From Candidatus Saccharimonadota bacterium (GTDB taxonomy: Bacteria; Patescibacteriota; Saccharimonadia; Saccharimonadales; UBA4665), in contig JARIHC010000004.1 of assembly GCA_029288485.1 (NCBI GenBank), positions 186,001 through 250,000 on the forward strand: 64,000 nt of DNA. Direction: 5' to 3'. Below, piece after piece: positions 406-11,356 of this stretch; the first letter of the stretch is position 1, and every line of letters starts with the position of its first letter. The position numbers and the translations under genes were made by a program. The notes beneath the pieces are model-generated. The model did no database searches, had not been told where the DNA came from, and worked only from the letters and a program-made list of their open reading frames with translations.

Positions 406-1590
406 ATGGACGTACTTGCTGCACCAGCCACGCCTGAACGGCGTCAGATTCACATATTTGGCGGCGCTACGACAGAATCAACTAACGACAACCCCCTGAG
501 CGGGCAGATTGCCAAGCGTATTGGCGAGCTGACCCAGGTGTTTATGCCACAGCTTGATACCCGTCTGCATCTAACCGACCAGGCTGGCGGAGAACTTGGT
601 ATAGCAACTGACGAGGATCTATATAACGCTGCCCACCAAGTCGCCGCCAACTATCCGACCAAAATGGTCTTTTGGGTGCCGGATAGCCCCAGCGCCCGCG
701 AAATCGCACCAATCTTCCGGCAAGAACAGGTGGATGGTATGGCGCCGCGTAAAGACATATTTTTAGTCGGCATGACAGCCACCAAAGGTGCTGCCGGCGC
801 GGAACAGTTTGATCAAGGCTTAAACTTCGTGAAAGGCGCCAGCGCGAACCTAGATCTAGCTTACGATTACGGCACCAGAAACGGTATGGTCGTAGCCCCC
901 GAAGAATCCAGATATGAAGAAAGTACCGAATTCGATATGGTACTGCGAGGGTTGATGGAGATGTCCTATTTACGCTCTCAACTTACTTTTACGCGCTCGA
1001 CCGTTATAGGTGGAGAGCCGGTTGACTGGAATGGTCCAGAAGTATATCCGACACTGCGCCAAGTCGTCGACTACTGTATCGAGAACGGCGCCTACAAGCC
1101 GTTCATGGGAGTCACCGCCGGACACTTTGCTTGTAAGGTCGGCGATACCGAGTTCTTAACGTCGCGGCGCAAAACCAACTTTAACGACTTGGGCAGCAGC
1201 GGACTGGTCAGGGTAATAACCGACGGACCGGATAAGGTAGTCGCCATGGGTGGCAAACCGTCCGTAGGCGGTCAATCCCAGCGGATCGTGTTTGAGCATC
1301 ATCCGGAGCGCGACAGCATCGTTCACTTCCACTGTCCGCCAAAAGAGGGTTCTAAAGTGCCTGTGGTTTCGCAGCGAGAATATGAATGCGGCAGCCATGA
1401 ATGTGGCCAGAATACCTCTGATGGCTTGGCTCTGGTTGATGACGGTATTGAAGCAGTCATGCTAGACAACCATGGCCCGAATGTGGTCTTTCACCATGAA
1501 GAAAATCCGGCCAAGATCATAGAGTTCATACGTGATAACTTCGATCTAACTAAGAAAACCGGCGGCTATGTACTGCCGACGGCGGTGTGA
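406..1590 (+). CDS. PPCS-like domain fused to class II aldolase/adducin-like domain
   Basis: The 394-residue protein has two parts. Residues about 12-215 resemble a phosphopantothenoylcysteine synthetase (CoaB) fold: a GGATTES nucleotide-loop-like start and a TRNGMVVAPEESRY segment that parallels TRRLHIVAPDGSY in the adjacent coaB. The conserved AND motif of real CoaB is replaced (LAYDYG). Residues about 235-385 look like class II aldolase/adducin, with HFH near residue 306 and DNHGP near 358 as likely zinc ligands. The catalytic glutamate of the fuculose aldolase PSSE motif is missing (PSVGGQ). A strong AAAGGAG precedes the ATG. It lies 13 nt before coaB and is probably in the same operon. 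Its reaction is unknown; a step or regulatory role in CoA or pantothenate metabolism is only an inference. Confidence 0.6.
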   Translation: MDVLAAPATPERRQIHIFGGATTESTNDNPLSGQIAKRIGELTQVFMPQLDTRLHLTDQAGGELGIATDEDLYNAAHQVAANYPTKMVFWVPDSPSAREIAPIFRQEQVDGMAPRKDIFLVGMTATKGAAGAEQFDQGLNFVKGASANLDLAYDYGTRNGMVVAPEESRYEESTEFDMVLRGLMEMSYLRSQLTFTRSTVIGGEPVDWNGPEVYPTLRQVVDYCIENGAYKPFMGVTAGHFACKVGDTEFLTSRRKTNFNDLGSSGLVRVITDGPDKVVAMGGKPSVGGQSQRIVFEHHPERDSIVHFHCPPKEGSKVPVVSQREYECGSHECGQNTSDGLALVDDGIEAVMLDNHGPNVVFHHEENPAKIIEFIRDNFDLTKKTGGYVLPTAV

Positions 1591-2806: not shown

Positions 2807-3577
2807 TTATTTAGCTGGTTTAGTATTTTGCCAAATGAAGTTAAAGACTAGTCTAAGCAACTCGGTGCTGGCACTGTTATGTATAGCGTGAGCTGTTTTT
2901 TGGTTATAGGGGTCAATAATCAGTGTCGTATTATCATATAAAATCACTAAGCTATTGAAGGCGCCGCGAAATTCCTCTGGCAAAACCCGCGGGTTACGAT
3001 AAAAAACGTCTTCTACCGAAGGGGTTTTGATGTTATCTGTCGGCTCCCACAACGTCTTCGCGGTAATACCCCGGTGTTTGCGCTCCTCTAAATAATACTT
3101 CTGATACTGTTTGCTCATGTGGTACAGAAAGTTATCGCGCGCCGCTATAATGTGCCACTGTTTGGAATCACAGCGCATAGCTTGCTCGATAGCCTGCTTA
3201 ATAGCCTCTGTGCCTTCGTAACGAGCTACATAGGAATCTTGCTGCGGCTTTTTAGCATTAAGCGTTTGGAAAACATTTTTTAAACTATCTAGCTGTTCGA
3301 TTTTTTGCCGCTCTGTTTTGATTGTGGATTCAATATTGCGTTTAAGCGCATCGATGTCCGCGCAGCGGTAAGTACGCACGTTATTTTGGGTATTCTCGGA
3401 TATTAGCCCGTTAGCCTTAAGCTGCGACAGAGTGTAGTAAATAGTCGTCCTGACCAGTCCGGTCTGGCGCTGTATATCGGACACTTTCCGCCCGGGGTGC
3501 TCTAAAATACAGGTGTAAACAGCGATTTCCGTATCGTTTAAACCGTAGGAGCGCAGCCACTTGTTAATTTCTTGCAT
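2807..3577 (-). CDS. TrmB-family transcriptional regulator
   Basis: The 256-residue protein starts with a winged helix-turn-helix of TrmB type (LNDTEIAVYTCILEHPGRKVSDIQRQTGLVRTTIYYTLSQLKANGL, residues about 14-60). A charged linker helix follows (about 75-105), then a C-terminal effector domain of the PLD-like fold seen in TrmB regulators. TrmB proteins in archaea respond to sugars; what this one senses is unknown. TATAAT lies exactly 7 nt before the ATG with no Shine-Dalgarno sequence, suggesting a leaderless message. A 31-bp palindrome over the promoter suggests autoregulation. Confidence 0.8.
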   Translation of the reverse strand: MQEINKWLRSYGLNDTEIAVYTCILEHPGRKVSDIQRQTGLVRTTIYYTLSQLKANGLISENTQNNVRTYRCADIDALKRNIESTIKTERQKIEQLDSLKNVFQTLNAKKPQQDSYVARYEGTEAIKQAIEQAMRCDSKQWHIIAARDNFLYHMSKQYQKYYLEERKHRGITAKTLWEPTDNIKTPSVEDVFYRNPRVLPEEFRGAFNSLVILYDNTTLIIDPYNQKTAHAIHNSASTELLRLVFNFIWQNTKPAK

Positions 3578-5778: not shown

Positions 5779-6795
5779 GTGAGCTGGCAAGCAGTTGACC
5801 CCAAACAACAACTAACGACCATGGTCGAGATGGGAGGAGGCTGGGTCAACGCCCACGCCCACATTGACCGCAGCTATATTATTAACGCCGATAATTGGGC
5901 GCGTACAAACGACGCACTGGCCACCAAGTGGGATCTAACGGACGAATATAAACGCTCGGCAAGTGTCGAGGAAATTCTAGGACATATGTCTATGGCAGCC
6001 GAACACTTGCTAATGCAAGGCGGCCAGGCGTTAGGCTCGTTCATAGATTGCGATAGTGTGGTGCGCGACAAAAGCCTGCGTGCCGCCGAAAAACTCAGAG
6101 AGCGTTACGCGGATGAGCTAGAGATAGTCTTTATGAGCCAGCCAATCAAAGGTTTGAGCGACCCGGTTGAGCGGGAATGGTTTGAGCATGCCGCCGAATT
6201 CGTGGACATAATCGGTGGGCTGCCTGAGCGCGACGGCCACCACGACCCGTCCCTCGACAGGTCGGACGAACACTTCGACACCATCTTCGGACTGGCGGGC
6301 GAGCACGACAAACCGTTGCATATTCACGTCGACCAGCACAACACGCCGGCCCAGATTGAAACCGAGAGAGCTATAGCCAAAACCCGCGAACACGGCTACG
6401 CCGGCCGGGTTACGCTGATCCACTGCATATCGCTAGCGGCACACCCTAAGCCGTACCGCGAACGCATTTACGCCGATCTGACTGAGCAAGATATAGGTGT
6501 AGTAACTTGTCCGACAGCCTGGATTGACCACCGGCGCAGCGAAACCCTAACGCCGACACATAACGCCATCACGCCTGTAGACGAAATGGTCAAAGCCGGG
6601 ATACGCGTAGCGATCGGTACGGATAATATCGCCGATATCTACAAGCCTTTCAGCGACGGCGACATGTGGACCGAGCTGCGCTTTTTGCTGGAAGCTACGC
6701 ACATGTACGACATGGACACACTAGCTAGAATTGCCACTAGAAGCGGGCTAGAAGCACTTGGTCTAGCGGAAACCAGATCAGCCATAGCCGCTTAG
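5779..6795 (+). CDS. Amidohydrolase of the cytosine deaminase-like group
   Basis: The 338-residue protein carries the metal-dependent amidohydrolase signature: HAHID near residue 26, HVDQH near 191 (third histidine), HC near 215 and GTDN near 279 (metal-binding aspartate). This order matches the cytosine deaminase/amidohydrolase superfamily. The substrate cannot be read from the sequence; candidates are cytosine, related pyrimidines or another cyclic amide. The start is GTG at 5779, supported by AGGAGG 4 nt upstream. It stands between the small-RNA unit and a leaderless gene of unknown function. Confidence 0.75.
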   Translation: MSWQAVDPKQQLTTMVEMGGGWVNAHAHIDRSYIINADNWARTNDALATKWDLTDEYKRSASVEEILGHMSMAAEHLLMQGGQALGSFIDCDSVVRDKSLRAAEKLRERYADELEIVFMSQPIKGLSDPVEREWFEHAAEFVDIIGGLPERDGHHDPSLDRSDEHFDTIFGLAGEHDKPLHIHVDQHNTPAQIETERAIAKTREHGYAGRVTLIHCISLAAHPKPYRERIYADLTEQDIGVVTCPTAWIDHRRSETLTPTHNAITPVDEMVKAGIRVAIGTDNIADIYKPFSDGDMWTELRFLLEATHMYDMDTLARIATRSGLEALGLAETRSAIAA

Positions 6796-8198: not shown

Positions 8199-8726
8199 TT
8201 ACAATGCAGCCTGGCGCTCCACGATCGCATCAAGCACAGGCTCTGGAACAATTTCCGCTACAACCTTTTTCCAGTTGGGCGAATTAGCATCTAGAATTTG
8301 CTTGACTGCGCTTGAGCTAACCGCCTCGTAGTTAGGATTACAGGGTATAAAGATGGTTTCGACCTCTTCTGGCATGATCAGCTTATTAATTTTAAGCAAC
8401 GTCATTTCTTCGCCGAAATCCAGCTCAGTTCGAAGGCCGCGGATTAAGCCTGAAAAGCCGTTTTCGTGAGCATAATCCATCAAGAAACCATCAGGAGAAT
8501 GGCCAATGGCAACATTTCCCAGGTCGGCCGTGAGCTCTTCCATAAGCTCAAGTCTTTTTGGAGTTTCAAAAAAGGGTTTCTTTTTAGAGTTCACAGCCAC
8601 ATGCCATTCAACATGCGGGAAGATCTTGGCCGTCCTTCTAACTATATCGAGGTGGCCGCTGGTAGGGGGATCAAACGAGCCTCCGTACAGTACTTTAGGT
8701 TTAACTTCGCCGGTGGAATTTGCCAT
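8199..8726 (-). CDS. coaD: Phosphopantetheine adenylyltransferase (CoaD)
   Basis: CoaD transfers AMP from ATP to 4'-phosphopantetheine, giving dephospho-CoA. The 175-residue length fits the family. YGGSFDPPTSGHLDIVRR near residue 14 contains the nucleotidyltransferase (T/H)xGH motif. RGLRTELDFGEEM near 97 matches the family RGLR...D...E block, and VSSSAVK near 141 matches the ISSSxVR nucleotide-binding motif. AAGGAG precedes the ATG. It is divergent from coaE, with about 100 nt between them, so the last two CoA enzymes share one intergenic region. Confidence 0.92.
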   Translation of the reverse strand: MANSTGEVKPKVLYGGSFDPPTSGHLDIVRRTAKIFPHVEWHVAVNSKKKPFFETPKRLELMEELTADLGNVAIGHSPDGFLMDYAHENGFSGLIRGLRTELDFGEEMTLLKINKLIMPEEVETIFIPCNPNYEAVSSSAVKQILDANSPNWKKVVAEIVPEPVLDAIVERQAAL

Positions 8727-8826: not shown

Positions 8827-9456
8827 ATGAGCGCAGAAACCTCACCATCACTTTTCACCCTAACGGGCGGCATGGGCTCCGGCAAATCTACTGTCGGCAA
8901 AGAGCTATTGAAGCTGGGCGCCGGTGTTATTGACGCCGACAACATCGTACGCGACCTCAACCGGCCTGGCGAGCCGGGGTTTGCGGCTATGGTCGATATA
9001 CTCGGCCAAGAGGTTGTTGCCGACGATGGCCAGCTAGACAAAGACAAAGTGAGCTCAATGATGTTCAGTAGTCCAGTCCTGAAGCAGGAGGTTGAGCGAG
9101 TGGTTCACCCCCTGGTCTGGAGCAACATGTTCGAAGAGGTGCGAAAATTAGACAAAAACACTATTCCCATACTAGAAATACCTCTTTTAAAACCTGAGCA
9201 CACTAGATTTTTTGACGGTGTAGTTGTAGTTAATACCGACCCCGAACTAGCCGTAGAAAGGCTGGCTATGCGCGGTTTTACGCCTGAACAGGCTTGGGAC
9301 CGCATAAACACTCAGATGACCAATGAAGAGCGAGCAGAAATGGCCGACTACGTGATAGACAATAACGGCACCTATGACGAGTTAATGATAGCTGCTCGCG
9401 GTTCCTGGCACTGGATGCAAACAGTTAATATTCGACAACAGGTCGCTACGCGATAG
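8827..9456 (+). CDS. coaE: Dephospho-CoA kinase (CoaE)
   Basis: CoaE phosphorylates the 3'-hydroxyl of dephospho-CoA. The 209-residue protein opens with TGGMGSGKSTVGKE (P-loop), then DADNIVRDL near residue 37 (the DAD acceptor motif). VVHPLVW near 90, EIPLL near 110 and VVVNTDPELAVERLAMRG near 125 are typical of the family. VIDNNGT near 170 is the usual NNGT close to the C-terminus. A TATATA box lies about 15 nt before the ATG and no clear Shine-Dalgarno sequence is seen. It ends 2 nt from the convergent dioxygenase gene. Confidence 0.92.
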   Translation: MSAETSPSLFTLTGGMGSGKSTVGKELLKLGAGVIDADNIVRDLNRPGEPGFAAMVDILGQEVVADDGQLDKDKVSSMMFSSPVLKQEVERVVHPLVWSNMFEEVRKLDKNTIPILEIPLLKPEHTRFFDGVVVVNTDPELAVERLAMRGFTPEQAWDRINTQMTNEERAEMADYVIDNNGTYDELMIAARGSWHWMQTVNIRQQVATR

Positions 9457-9458
9457 AA

Positions 9459-10175
9459 CTAGGTATTAAAACGTACTCTCTGTAAATGGCGCTCTGGATC
9501 TAAAATATTATCTCTAGCGTGCAGGGCGCGCCAGTTGTCCACCAGAATCAACTCACCGGCTTGCGGCATATGCCGAATAGACGGCGTGGAGCGAATAACT
9601 CTATCCAGACCTAAAAGCGCCAGCTTCTGCTCAGTGCTCAGCTCGCCCTGCTGGATACATTCGTGGCGATAGCGAATATTATCCCGACAATCATCTTCAC
9701 CGTCAAATATAACGGGTAAGTCCTTTTGTTTGCTGTCTTTTTGGAACTCCAGCGGCACCTTCCACGGATATAAGGTGCTAGATAAAACATTACGGTCGTC
9801 TTCGCTCAATCCTTCTATAAGAGCGCTGAGCGGTAAAAATTTTTGCTGACCTCCGCCGCGGCGGTCGCCATGCAAAACTTGAAGCATAAAGTAGCGGGGC
9901 GGCGGCTCCTCGAATGATGCATCGGTGTGCCAGACAAACTCATCAGCCGTGTGCGAACGCGGGACCCCTGGAGCCGCCGCCGCTTGCGCCTTGACATCCC
10001 AGAGTAAGTCGCCAGCTGCATTATGTGCAGCCGGCTGTAAGCCAATTTCCCGGCCAAAGGCAACTAAATCGACAGACCGGTGCATAGTAAATACACCGAC
10101 CTCCTGACAAGGGAAGTCTGCGCTCAAAACAGTTAATTCAGGCATTCTGTCTGACAGCTCCTCTATGCTCTTCAT
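9459..10175 (-). CDS. TauD/TfdA-family Fe(II)/2-oxoglutarate dioxygenase-like protein
   Basis: The 238-residue protein has the facial triad of the TauD family: VWHTD near residue 84 (HxD) and RALHARDN near 216 (distal histidine), followed by HLQRVRFN whose arginine would bind 2-oxoglutarate. The substrate cannot be read. The ATG at 10175 overlaps the upstream gene by 4 nt (ATGA), and AAAGGAAG upstream gives a clear ribosome-binding site. The coupling with a possible ATP-grasp-like enzyme suggests a two-step modification pathway, perhaps of an amino acid or peptide. That role is an inference from context. Confidence 0.75.
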   Translation of the reverse strand: MKSIEELSDRMPELTVLSADFPCQEVGVFTMHRSVDLVAFGREIGLQPAAHNAAGDLLWDVKAQAAAAPGVPRSHTADEFVWHTDASFEEPPPRYFMLQVLHGDRRGGGQQKFLPLSALIEGLSEDDRNVLSSTLYPWKVPLEFQKDSKQKDLPVIFDGEDDCRDNIRYRHECIQQGELSTEQKLALLGLDRVIRSTPSIRHMPQAGELILVDNWRALHARDNILDPERHLQRVRFNT

Positions 10176-11356
10176 GATTCACTTCCTTTTACGGCAATCG
10201 TAAGCCCCTTGAAACCTTTTAGCCGGCGGCGCGGATAGACACGAACAATACCAGGACCGAAAACTTCGTCGTTTAACGTCATCGGCAAAGTGCCAGCAAT
10301 CTCTAGTTCTTCGCCTTTGGGAGATATAAGTTTAGGCTGCGATATGCGAGGCTGATAAACATAGGCTGCAGGATCATCAAGCCGCTCAGCGTAATCTGCT
10401 AAGCGAACAACCTGCAGGCTATCTCCTTTACCGGATATAGCACCTTTGGCTAGTGCCGATTTGGCCGCTATTCGCTCCGGCTCGCGCCCCTCCCAACCCG
10501 GGTGATACGAGGGCACTATGCCGTCAGCTAAGATTTGGGCGTTAGTTTCGCCTACTAGGTCAGCCATATACTCTTTGTCAGAGAGTGGCACCAACAAGCG
10601 TTTATCATGCAAGAGCATAATTACGCGTGGGTCGTTGTGAACCGGGACACCGGCCAATTTGAGCGATATCACGTCTTCTAGCGCACCAGCCAGTTCGTGT
10701 TGATGCAGCTCCAGAACCAACCGGCCAATTTTGCCAGGATCCAACAATCTGAGCGCTTCAGAGCTCACCGAGCAAACTGCTTCTGATCGCTGTTTCTGCA
10801 GAGTTATGTCGTGCTCCGGTTCGCTGTCTTGAGCAAACACTACCGGGCCCTCTTCGGCGTCAGAGCCGCCGTAGGTCTTAACCAGCCAGTCGTTTAGCCG
10901 TTGGTATGGCTCAGTATCAATATCGTAGCGACGACTTAGGTAAGCAGCCATGTGCGTCGAGGCAATGTTGCCATTAAAGATAAAACGGGTGTTGATTTCG
11001 CAAACTCTTGGGCGGCCGCCGTGGTCATAAATATAATCCGGACGAACTAGCTGCGGACTGAGCGGGATATCCTTCAGTCTATTAAGTTCTTCGCGGTCGG
11101 CTTCCCTTATTGACAGCAGGGCATGGAGCCTCTTATCGGTCTGAGCAGCGTCCAAAATAGCCAGAGCACCAACTTGCAAAGCTTTCTGAACCTCAATCAA
11201 TCGGTCGTAATGGGCCGCTTCGTGCACATACGGCACCCACAGGTTTTCCTCTGTCAAATAATCAGGTAGCGCCTCGTATTGGCTGGCTAGCAGTTGCTGG
11301 TATTCGCGCTGCTGCACAGCTGGCAAAAGTGCTAACTCTCCCTGTTCTTTGGTCAT
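10172..11356 (-). CDS. Uncharacterised enzyme, possibly ATP-grasp-like, paired with TauD protein
   Basis: The 394-residue soluble protein has an RPDYIYDHGGRPRVCEIN segment near residue 111 followed by an RFIFNG motif. This pattern of acid-asparagine-arginine residues recalls circularly permuted ATP-grasp enzymes, but I cannot confirm the fold by eye. NDPRVIMLLHDKRLLVPL near 240 would be a second nucleotide-binding-type segment. A TTGTTT -35 box, 17 nt, TAACAT -10 box and 7 nt lead to the ATG, so the message is probably leaderless. It overlaps the downstream TauD-like gene by 4 nt. Ligation of an amino acid or polyamine is possible, not shown. Confidence 0.5.
   Translation of the reverse strand: MTKEQGELALLPAVQQREYQQLLASQYEALPDYLTEENLWVPYVHEAAHYDRLIEVQKALQVGALAILDAAQTDKRLHALLSIREADREELNRLKDIPLSPQLVRPDYIYDHGGRPRVCEINTRFIFNGNIASTHMAAYLSRRYDIDTEPYQRLNDWLVKTYGGSDAEEGPVVFAQDSEPEHDITLQKQRSEAVCSVSSEALRLLDPGKIGRLVLELHQHELAGALEDVISLKLAGVPVHNDPRVIMLLHDKRLLVPLSDKEYMADLVGETNAQILADGIVPSYHPGWEGREPERIAAKSALAKGAISGKGDSLQVVRLADYAERLDDPAAYVYQPRISQPKLISPKGEELEIAGTLPMTLNDEVFGPGIVRVYPRRRLKGFKGLTIAVKGSES

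Follow-up and report, generated by a model that had tools for sequence, protein, structure and literature searches.

A phage-type fusion of CoaB-like and class II aldolase-fold domains at the head of a coaB-coaC operon in a Saccharibacterial genome

The window analyzed here is a stretch of 64,000 nucleotides from the genome (0.91 Mb) of a Candidatus Saccharimonadota bacterium. An open reading frame of 394 amino acids without internal stop codons (positions 406-1590, forward strand) joins a CoaB-like N-terminal half to a C-terminal half of class II aldolase fold, and is present as a single copy in the whole genome. Its ATG is preceded by a Shine-Dalgarno-like AGGAG and its stop codon ends at 1590, upstream of a canonical coaB (1604-2272, +) that encodes phosphopantothenate-cysteine ligase and was assigned by its DFP match (2.3e-34) and its placement in a tree. 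The coaB stop codon is overlapped by coaC (2265-2804, +), encoding phosphopantothenoylcysteine decarboxylase, and this arrangement supports an operon of genuine coaB and coaC genes headed by the fusion. A gene for a TrmB-family regulator (2807-3577, -) lies convergent to the operon. The pathway genes coaD (8199-8726, -; 134 bits, cut-off 103) and coaE (8827-9456, +; 136 bits, cut-off 66) were also detected, and a search of the window genome for a type III pantothenate kinase gave no match to this kinase type. Other genes in this region include a TauD-type Fe(II)/2-oxoglutarate dioxygenase (9459-10175, -), which overlaps the gene of a second 394-residue protein without Pfam match (10172-11356, -), and an amidohydrolase (5779-6795, +) that matches NCBIfam PRK06886 (379 bits, cut-off 340), a family named merely "hypothetical protein".

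A reading made from the sequence alone had described the protein as a degenerate CoaB-like domain fused to a class II aldolase-like domain, and had proposed structure prediction of both halves against the CoaB and FucA folds. AlphaFold2 models of the window protein and of an intact Saccharibacterial homologue (L089) reached mean pLDDT values of 93.6 and 93.4, respectively, and Foldseek recovered the CoaB fold in the homologue and a FucA/YgbL fold in the window C-terminal half. These models, the match of the family profile to the CoaB structure 2gk4 (E 2.1e-12) and the Pfam DFP domain of standalone homologues establish that both halves had been identified correctly, the similarity being much greater than chance would give. 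For L089, CoaB or phosphopantothenoylcysteine synthetase accounts for all 50 of the 50 matches listed (2gk4, E 6.8e-9; 6thc, TMt 0.73), and its N-terminal half also matches the structure of Mycobacterium smegmatis CoaB with CTP. A standalone N-half homologue of a phage reaches the Pfam DFP cut-off (E 1.7e-12). The N-terminal half of the window protein has no Pfam DFP match and its model matches CoaB more weakly (2gk4, E 1e-4 or weaker); a fold search of BFVD returned nothing significant.

Conservation is strongly uneven between the two halves, as measured in a 63-member alignment by counting departures from positions common to at least 90% of the other members. Of the 51 near-invariant positions of the CoaB-like domain (residues 11-200; 436-1005, +), 18 differ in the window copy, as against 2 of the 73 of the aldolase-fold domain (residues 205-394; 1018-1587, +) (Fisher p 1.3e-6), the family median being one departure per half. 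The only other strong N-half outlier (L038, 14 departures) is explained largely by gaps at the start of the domain, a part missing from the open reading frame used. In the window copy about 30 residues are missing between positions 93 and 115 (deletion site at 676-756, +), among them D113, present in 62 of the 63 members and equivalent to the cation-binding D281 of M. smegmatis CoaB, an enzyme that binds CTP (PMC7794376). The same deletion removes the counterpart of the K-x-K-K (or K-I-S-S) loop with which CoaB contacts the phosphates of CTP and which reads R-L-x-[ST] in the family (Arg in 61 of 63). The R...N-x-S-x-G-K loop of CoaB corresponds to RxHLALxAPAYG in the family and is partly deleted in the window copy, where five residues are missing from the family-conserved VRxHLALAAPAYG stretch (478-510, +). 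The absence of the AND motif, noted in the sequence-only reading, holds for this copy, which reads AYD (859-867, +), but it is a private loss and not a family trait, the Asn being present in 62 of 63 aligned members. The family signature of the N-terminal half (GGGT, HLAL, the D of xDF, AND, TRxNM) is thus largely lost, and the alignment shows a CoaB-like half devoid of the predicted equivalents of the cation-binding Asp, the basic loop and AND, joined to a conserved C-terminal half.

Compared with CoaB/phosphopantothenoylcysteine synthetase (DFP; 2gk4, 6thc, 1u7z), the family shares the fold, an Ala-x-x-Asp motif, the GF(K) strand and AND, whereas it carries HLALxAPAYG instead of the Asn-x-Ser-x-Gly-Lys loop and RLx[ST] instead of K-x-K-K and forms a separate clade; the window copy has lost even residues that the family and CoaB have in common.

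The C-terminal half of the window protein matches Pfam Aldolase_II (PF00596; 31.1 bits, cut-off 22.2). Its predicted metal ligands are H307 and H309 of HFH (1324-1332, +), both invariant, and, by alignment, H356 of DNHGP (1471-1473, +), and the HxH...H triad is found in 63 of 63 members. The catalytic Glu of class II aldolases (E73 of FucA) is replaced by a Gly that is invariant in the family (KPSVGG, compared with KPSAET in 2irp), so that the zinc-ligand motifs and the missing glutamate reported earlier are both borne out. An ECGSHECG motif (1384-1407, +) contains two Cys conserved in all 63 members, C328 and C333, and H331, found in 59; CGSxxCG is invariant throughout the 63. The leading Foldseek matches of the window model included YgbL, FucA and Fe(II) enzymes that share their fold, such as pyruvic oxime dioxygenase, at modest TM-scores of about 0.55 for the C-terminal half. 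FucA, YgbL and AraD have the fold and the HxH...H triad in common with the fusion, which differs from them by the Gly in place of Glu, the invariant CGSxxCG and the attached CoaB-like domain. Pyruvic oxime dioxygenase has a class II aldolase fold and the His triad, lacks Glu73 at the usual place and is active with Fe(II) (PMC11841055), and the same pattern of a His triad without Glu73 is present in the fusion. NovR and TqaM also share the fold and the triad, but neither they nor pyruvic oxime dioxygenase are closely related in sequence to the fusion C-terminal half. Judged from these residues and analogies, Zn lyase and Fe oxygenase chemistry would both be possible for this domain.

The fusion family is conserved and is mostly a gene of very large phages. 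In IMG/VR, profile scanning confirmed relatives on 96 stretches, from contigs of up to 578 kb; this number is a lower bound for the phage relatives, and 80 of the stretches were kept. A 595-kb uncultured phage (LR756511, 47%) encodes a close relative of the window protein, and the nearest ones are found in Saccharibacterial metagenome-assembled genomes (MAGs) (G139/L007, G009/L008 and G518/L089). Among GTDB genomes nine fusion loci were detected besides the window, ten in all: three in Saccharibacteria, one in another Patescibacterium, three in alphaproteobacterial MAGs, one in an actinomycete and one in a Saprospiraceae MAG. At least one of the alphaproteobacterial contigs carries ordinary cellular genes, although MAG contigs in general may contain phage sequence. 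The fusion is rare within the class and phylum of the window genome. Single-sequence scans of the GTDB contigs and IMG/VR gave no matches, and the family was recovered by profile scans.

The N-terminal half also occurs as a standalone protein in Caulobacter phages of the CcrSC type, Pseudomonas phages (PHROG 35624) and Variovorax plasmids. PHROG 35624, a phage protein of unknown function exemplified by PPSC2 orf72, belongs to the same family (E 2.4e-33 with L089) and has no aldolase-fold half. When a standalone C-terminal half was sought among annotated phages, nothing but the fusion was found. Two huge phages (L133 and L134; LR756500 and LR756501, 462 and 735 kb) encode a standalone CoaB of canonical type. 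The alphaproteobacterial members carry an extra N-terminal helix-turn-helix (HTH) domain (HTH_31/HTH_3; L093:7782-9257, L094:2299-3756, L095:5518-6975), and inspection of the phage and Saccharibacterial sequences revealed no extension of this type. Two of them adjoin a gene for a small protein (GRRLKW..AWAFHN..AHPL), which also follows the fusion in 12 phage loci. CoaB-type and class II aldolase-type folds do not usually occur in one protein, so the family should mark an unknown reaction. NCBIfam and Pfam hold no model for it, and, as far as the open-access literature was searched, no paper describes this combination of known folds, in spite of its occurrence in many large phages and a few bacteria.

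The origin of the N-terminal half was addressed with a tree of 37 CoaB-type domains, in which canonical CoaB and a phage-type clade are separated at 100/100 support. The window domain sits inside the latter, together with its Saccharibacterial counterparts (98/88), and a topology uniting it with the coaB genes of Saccharibacteria is rejected (AU p 3.6e-6). The fusion is therefore not a duplicate of the coaB of its lineage, and the early duplication put forward in the sequence-only reading is ruled out. A tree of full-length proteins unites the four Saccharibacterial copies in a single clade surrounded by phage sequences (support 100), with a window branch of 1.32 compared with 0.17-0.40 elsewhere in that clade. 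The likeliest history is a transfer between phages and a Saccharibacterial ancestor, in either direction.

The arrangement in the window had also suggested a function in CoA or pantothenate metabolism, to be examined by looking for the same fusion and its linkage to coaB and coaC in other genomes of the candidate phyla radiation (CPR). The fusion itself was found there, in the Saccharibacteria and the other Patescibacterium listed above, but a consistent linkage was not. CoaB and CoaC were not found in G009 and G139 (whole genomes searched, PF04127), in G518 no CoaC was found and no coaB within its 17-kb locus, and coaD is absent or below cut-off in all three. The linkage is thus confined to the window genome, one of the four Saccharibacteria with the fusion. 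Given these negative results for the other three, a function in CoA metabolism cannot apply to the fusion generally. The CoA connection as a whole is weak and indirect. The coaB gene itself is rare in the lineage (about 4 of 149 relatives).

A looser association is provided by the regulator. Members of one TrmB subfamily lie beside the fusion, canonical coaB or both in seven loci (the window and six other Saccharibacteria): the gene is adjacent to the fusion in G139 and G009, one gene away in G518 and located after coaC in the window, and it accompanies canonical coaB or the coaB operon in the window, G092, G144 and G722. Each of these genomes encodes one to three recognizable members of the subfamily; where paralogues were checked (G722, G518 and G092), they are unlinked to fusion, coaB, diiron or ArgC-like genes. 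The linkage is not exclusive, a close TrmB in G001 adjoining an unrelated gene, and the coaB of G709 has no TrmB on its 11.7-kb contig. The presence of the same TrmB-type regulator at fusion and coaB loci supports some loose connection to CoaB among Saccharibacteria. The coaB operons of G092 and G144 begin with a gene for a rubrerythrin/COQ7-like diiron protein (L139:1055-1618 and L137:9629-10186; 73% identical between the two), divergent from the TrmB regulator. The window fusion thus occupies the place of this unrelated diiron protein, a hint that pairing CoaB with a metal enzyme is a common theme.

The explanation that best accommodates these observations, to which we give about an even chance, is that of a phage-type fusion whose ligase half has decayed in the window copy, with the neighbouring CoaB supplying or superseding the ligase activity and the metal domain still working. 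In the intact family the N-terminal half would bind a nucleotide, probably CTP, and activate a carboxylic acid. This acid is probably other than 4'-phosphopantothenate, since RxHLALxAPAYG stands where CoaB has its RxxxNxSxGK loop. The C-terminal half would hold Zn or Fe(II) on its three His and transform a related small metabolite. The canonical CoaB encoded downstream in the window genome would provide or supersede the ligase activity, leaving the fused ligase domain free to decay; judging from this one genome, the domain may have become dispensable thanks to its neighbour. The function of the protein, co-expressed with coaB-coaC, would now reside chiefly in the metal domain. With one half decayed and a canonical CoaB next to it, the window copy represents a natural experiment on the task of each half.

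A broader version of this scheme, possible though on balance unlikely, takes the family as a bifunctional phage enzyme that combines CoaB-like acyl-nucleotidylation of a new acid with a three-His Fe(II)/Zn domain. The Saccharibacterial module would then occur fused, split into the diiron protein and canonical CoaB, or mixed as in the window, where a dead fused ligase is replaced by the adjacent CoaB. If split and fused modules were equivalent, a CoaB-linked step would be exposed in a lineage in which coaB is rare. Against the main explanation counts that no conserved phage neighbour indicates a pathway: the fusion has no fixed neighbour in phages, and the commonest neighbour clusters come largely from one group of related phages. 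The alphaproteobacterial HTH domain, for its part, suits a sensor.

Such a sensor or trigger enzyme is a possible but less likely alternative: both folds would bind a metabolite to control transcription, either on their own, in members with an HTH, or jointly with the TrmB regulator. It would account for the HTH_31/HTH_3 domains and for a TrmB-type gene adjacent to or one gene off the fusion in 4 of 4 Saccharibacteria. However, the phage and Saccharibacterial members show no HTH extension of the alphaproteobacterial type, TrmB is already a complete regulator by itself and invariant metal ligands in such a pattern typically belong to a catalytic site. A rather less probable explanation is a nucleotide-linked enzyme, with the CTP-type fold adapted to modify or recycle pyrimidine nucleotides and serving DNA or nucleotide metabolism in phages. 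CoaB does bind CTP (PMC7794376), phage neighbours include genes for nucleoside deoxyribosyltransferase-like proteins, ThyX, RNR, OMP decarboxylase and GTP cyclohydrolase, and one alphaproteobacterial copy is located upstream of genes for GTP cyclohydrolase II-like, DUF1688 and uracil phosphoribosyltransferase proteins; yet no such neighbour recurs in more than a few of the roughly 60 loci, and nucleotide genes are common in large phages regardless.

That the whole gene is a decaying pseudogene seems improbable: its long branch and the N-half deletions would fit, but the frame is open, AGGAG precedes the ATG and the near-intact C-terminal half (2 of 73 positions changed) disfavours decay of the entire gene. 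Least credible is the scheme of the sequence-only reading, a CPR coaB duplicate joined to an aldolase partner and serving CoA synthesis, since the shared operon and the presence of coaD and coaE within 8 kb are outweighed by a clade apart from all canonical CoaB sampled, by the rejected grouping with Saccharibacterial coaB and by fusions occurring where coaB and coaC were not detected.

Several minor observations concern the neighbourhoods of these genes. An ArgC-like gene directly follows coaB or coaC in G722 and G090 (L147:6252-7037 and L138:1662-2453, about 36% identical to each other), and the ArgC-like gene that follows a phage-type CoaB-like gene on Variovorax plasmids (L104) is unrelated or very distant; homology between the Saccharibacterial and Variovorax proteins was unsupported by phmmer, with pairwise BLAST reaching only E 9e-4. 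Downstream of one alphaproteobacterial copy, the genes at L093:10445-13729 (GTP cyclohydrolase II-like, DUF1688 and uracil phosphoribosyltransferase) are similar to the URC set for uracil degradation. M23 peptidase-like genes are located beside or near the fusion or the standalone N-terminal half in unrelated loci (L095:6972-7511, L006:8878-9486 and L103:5591-6268).
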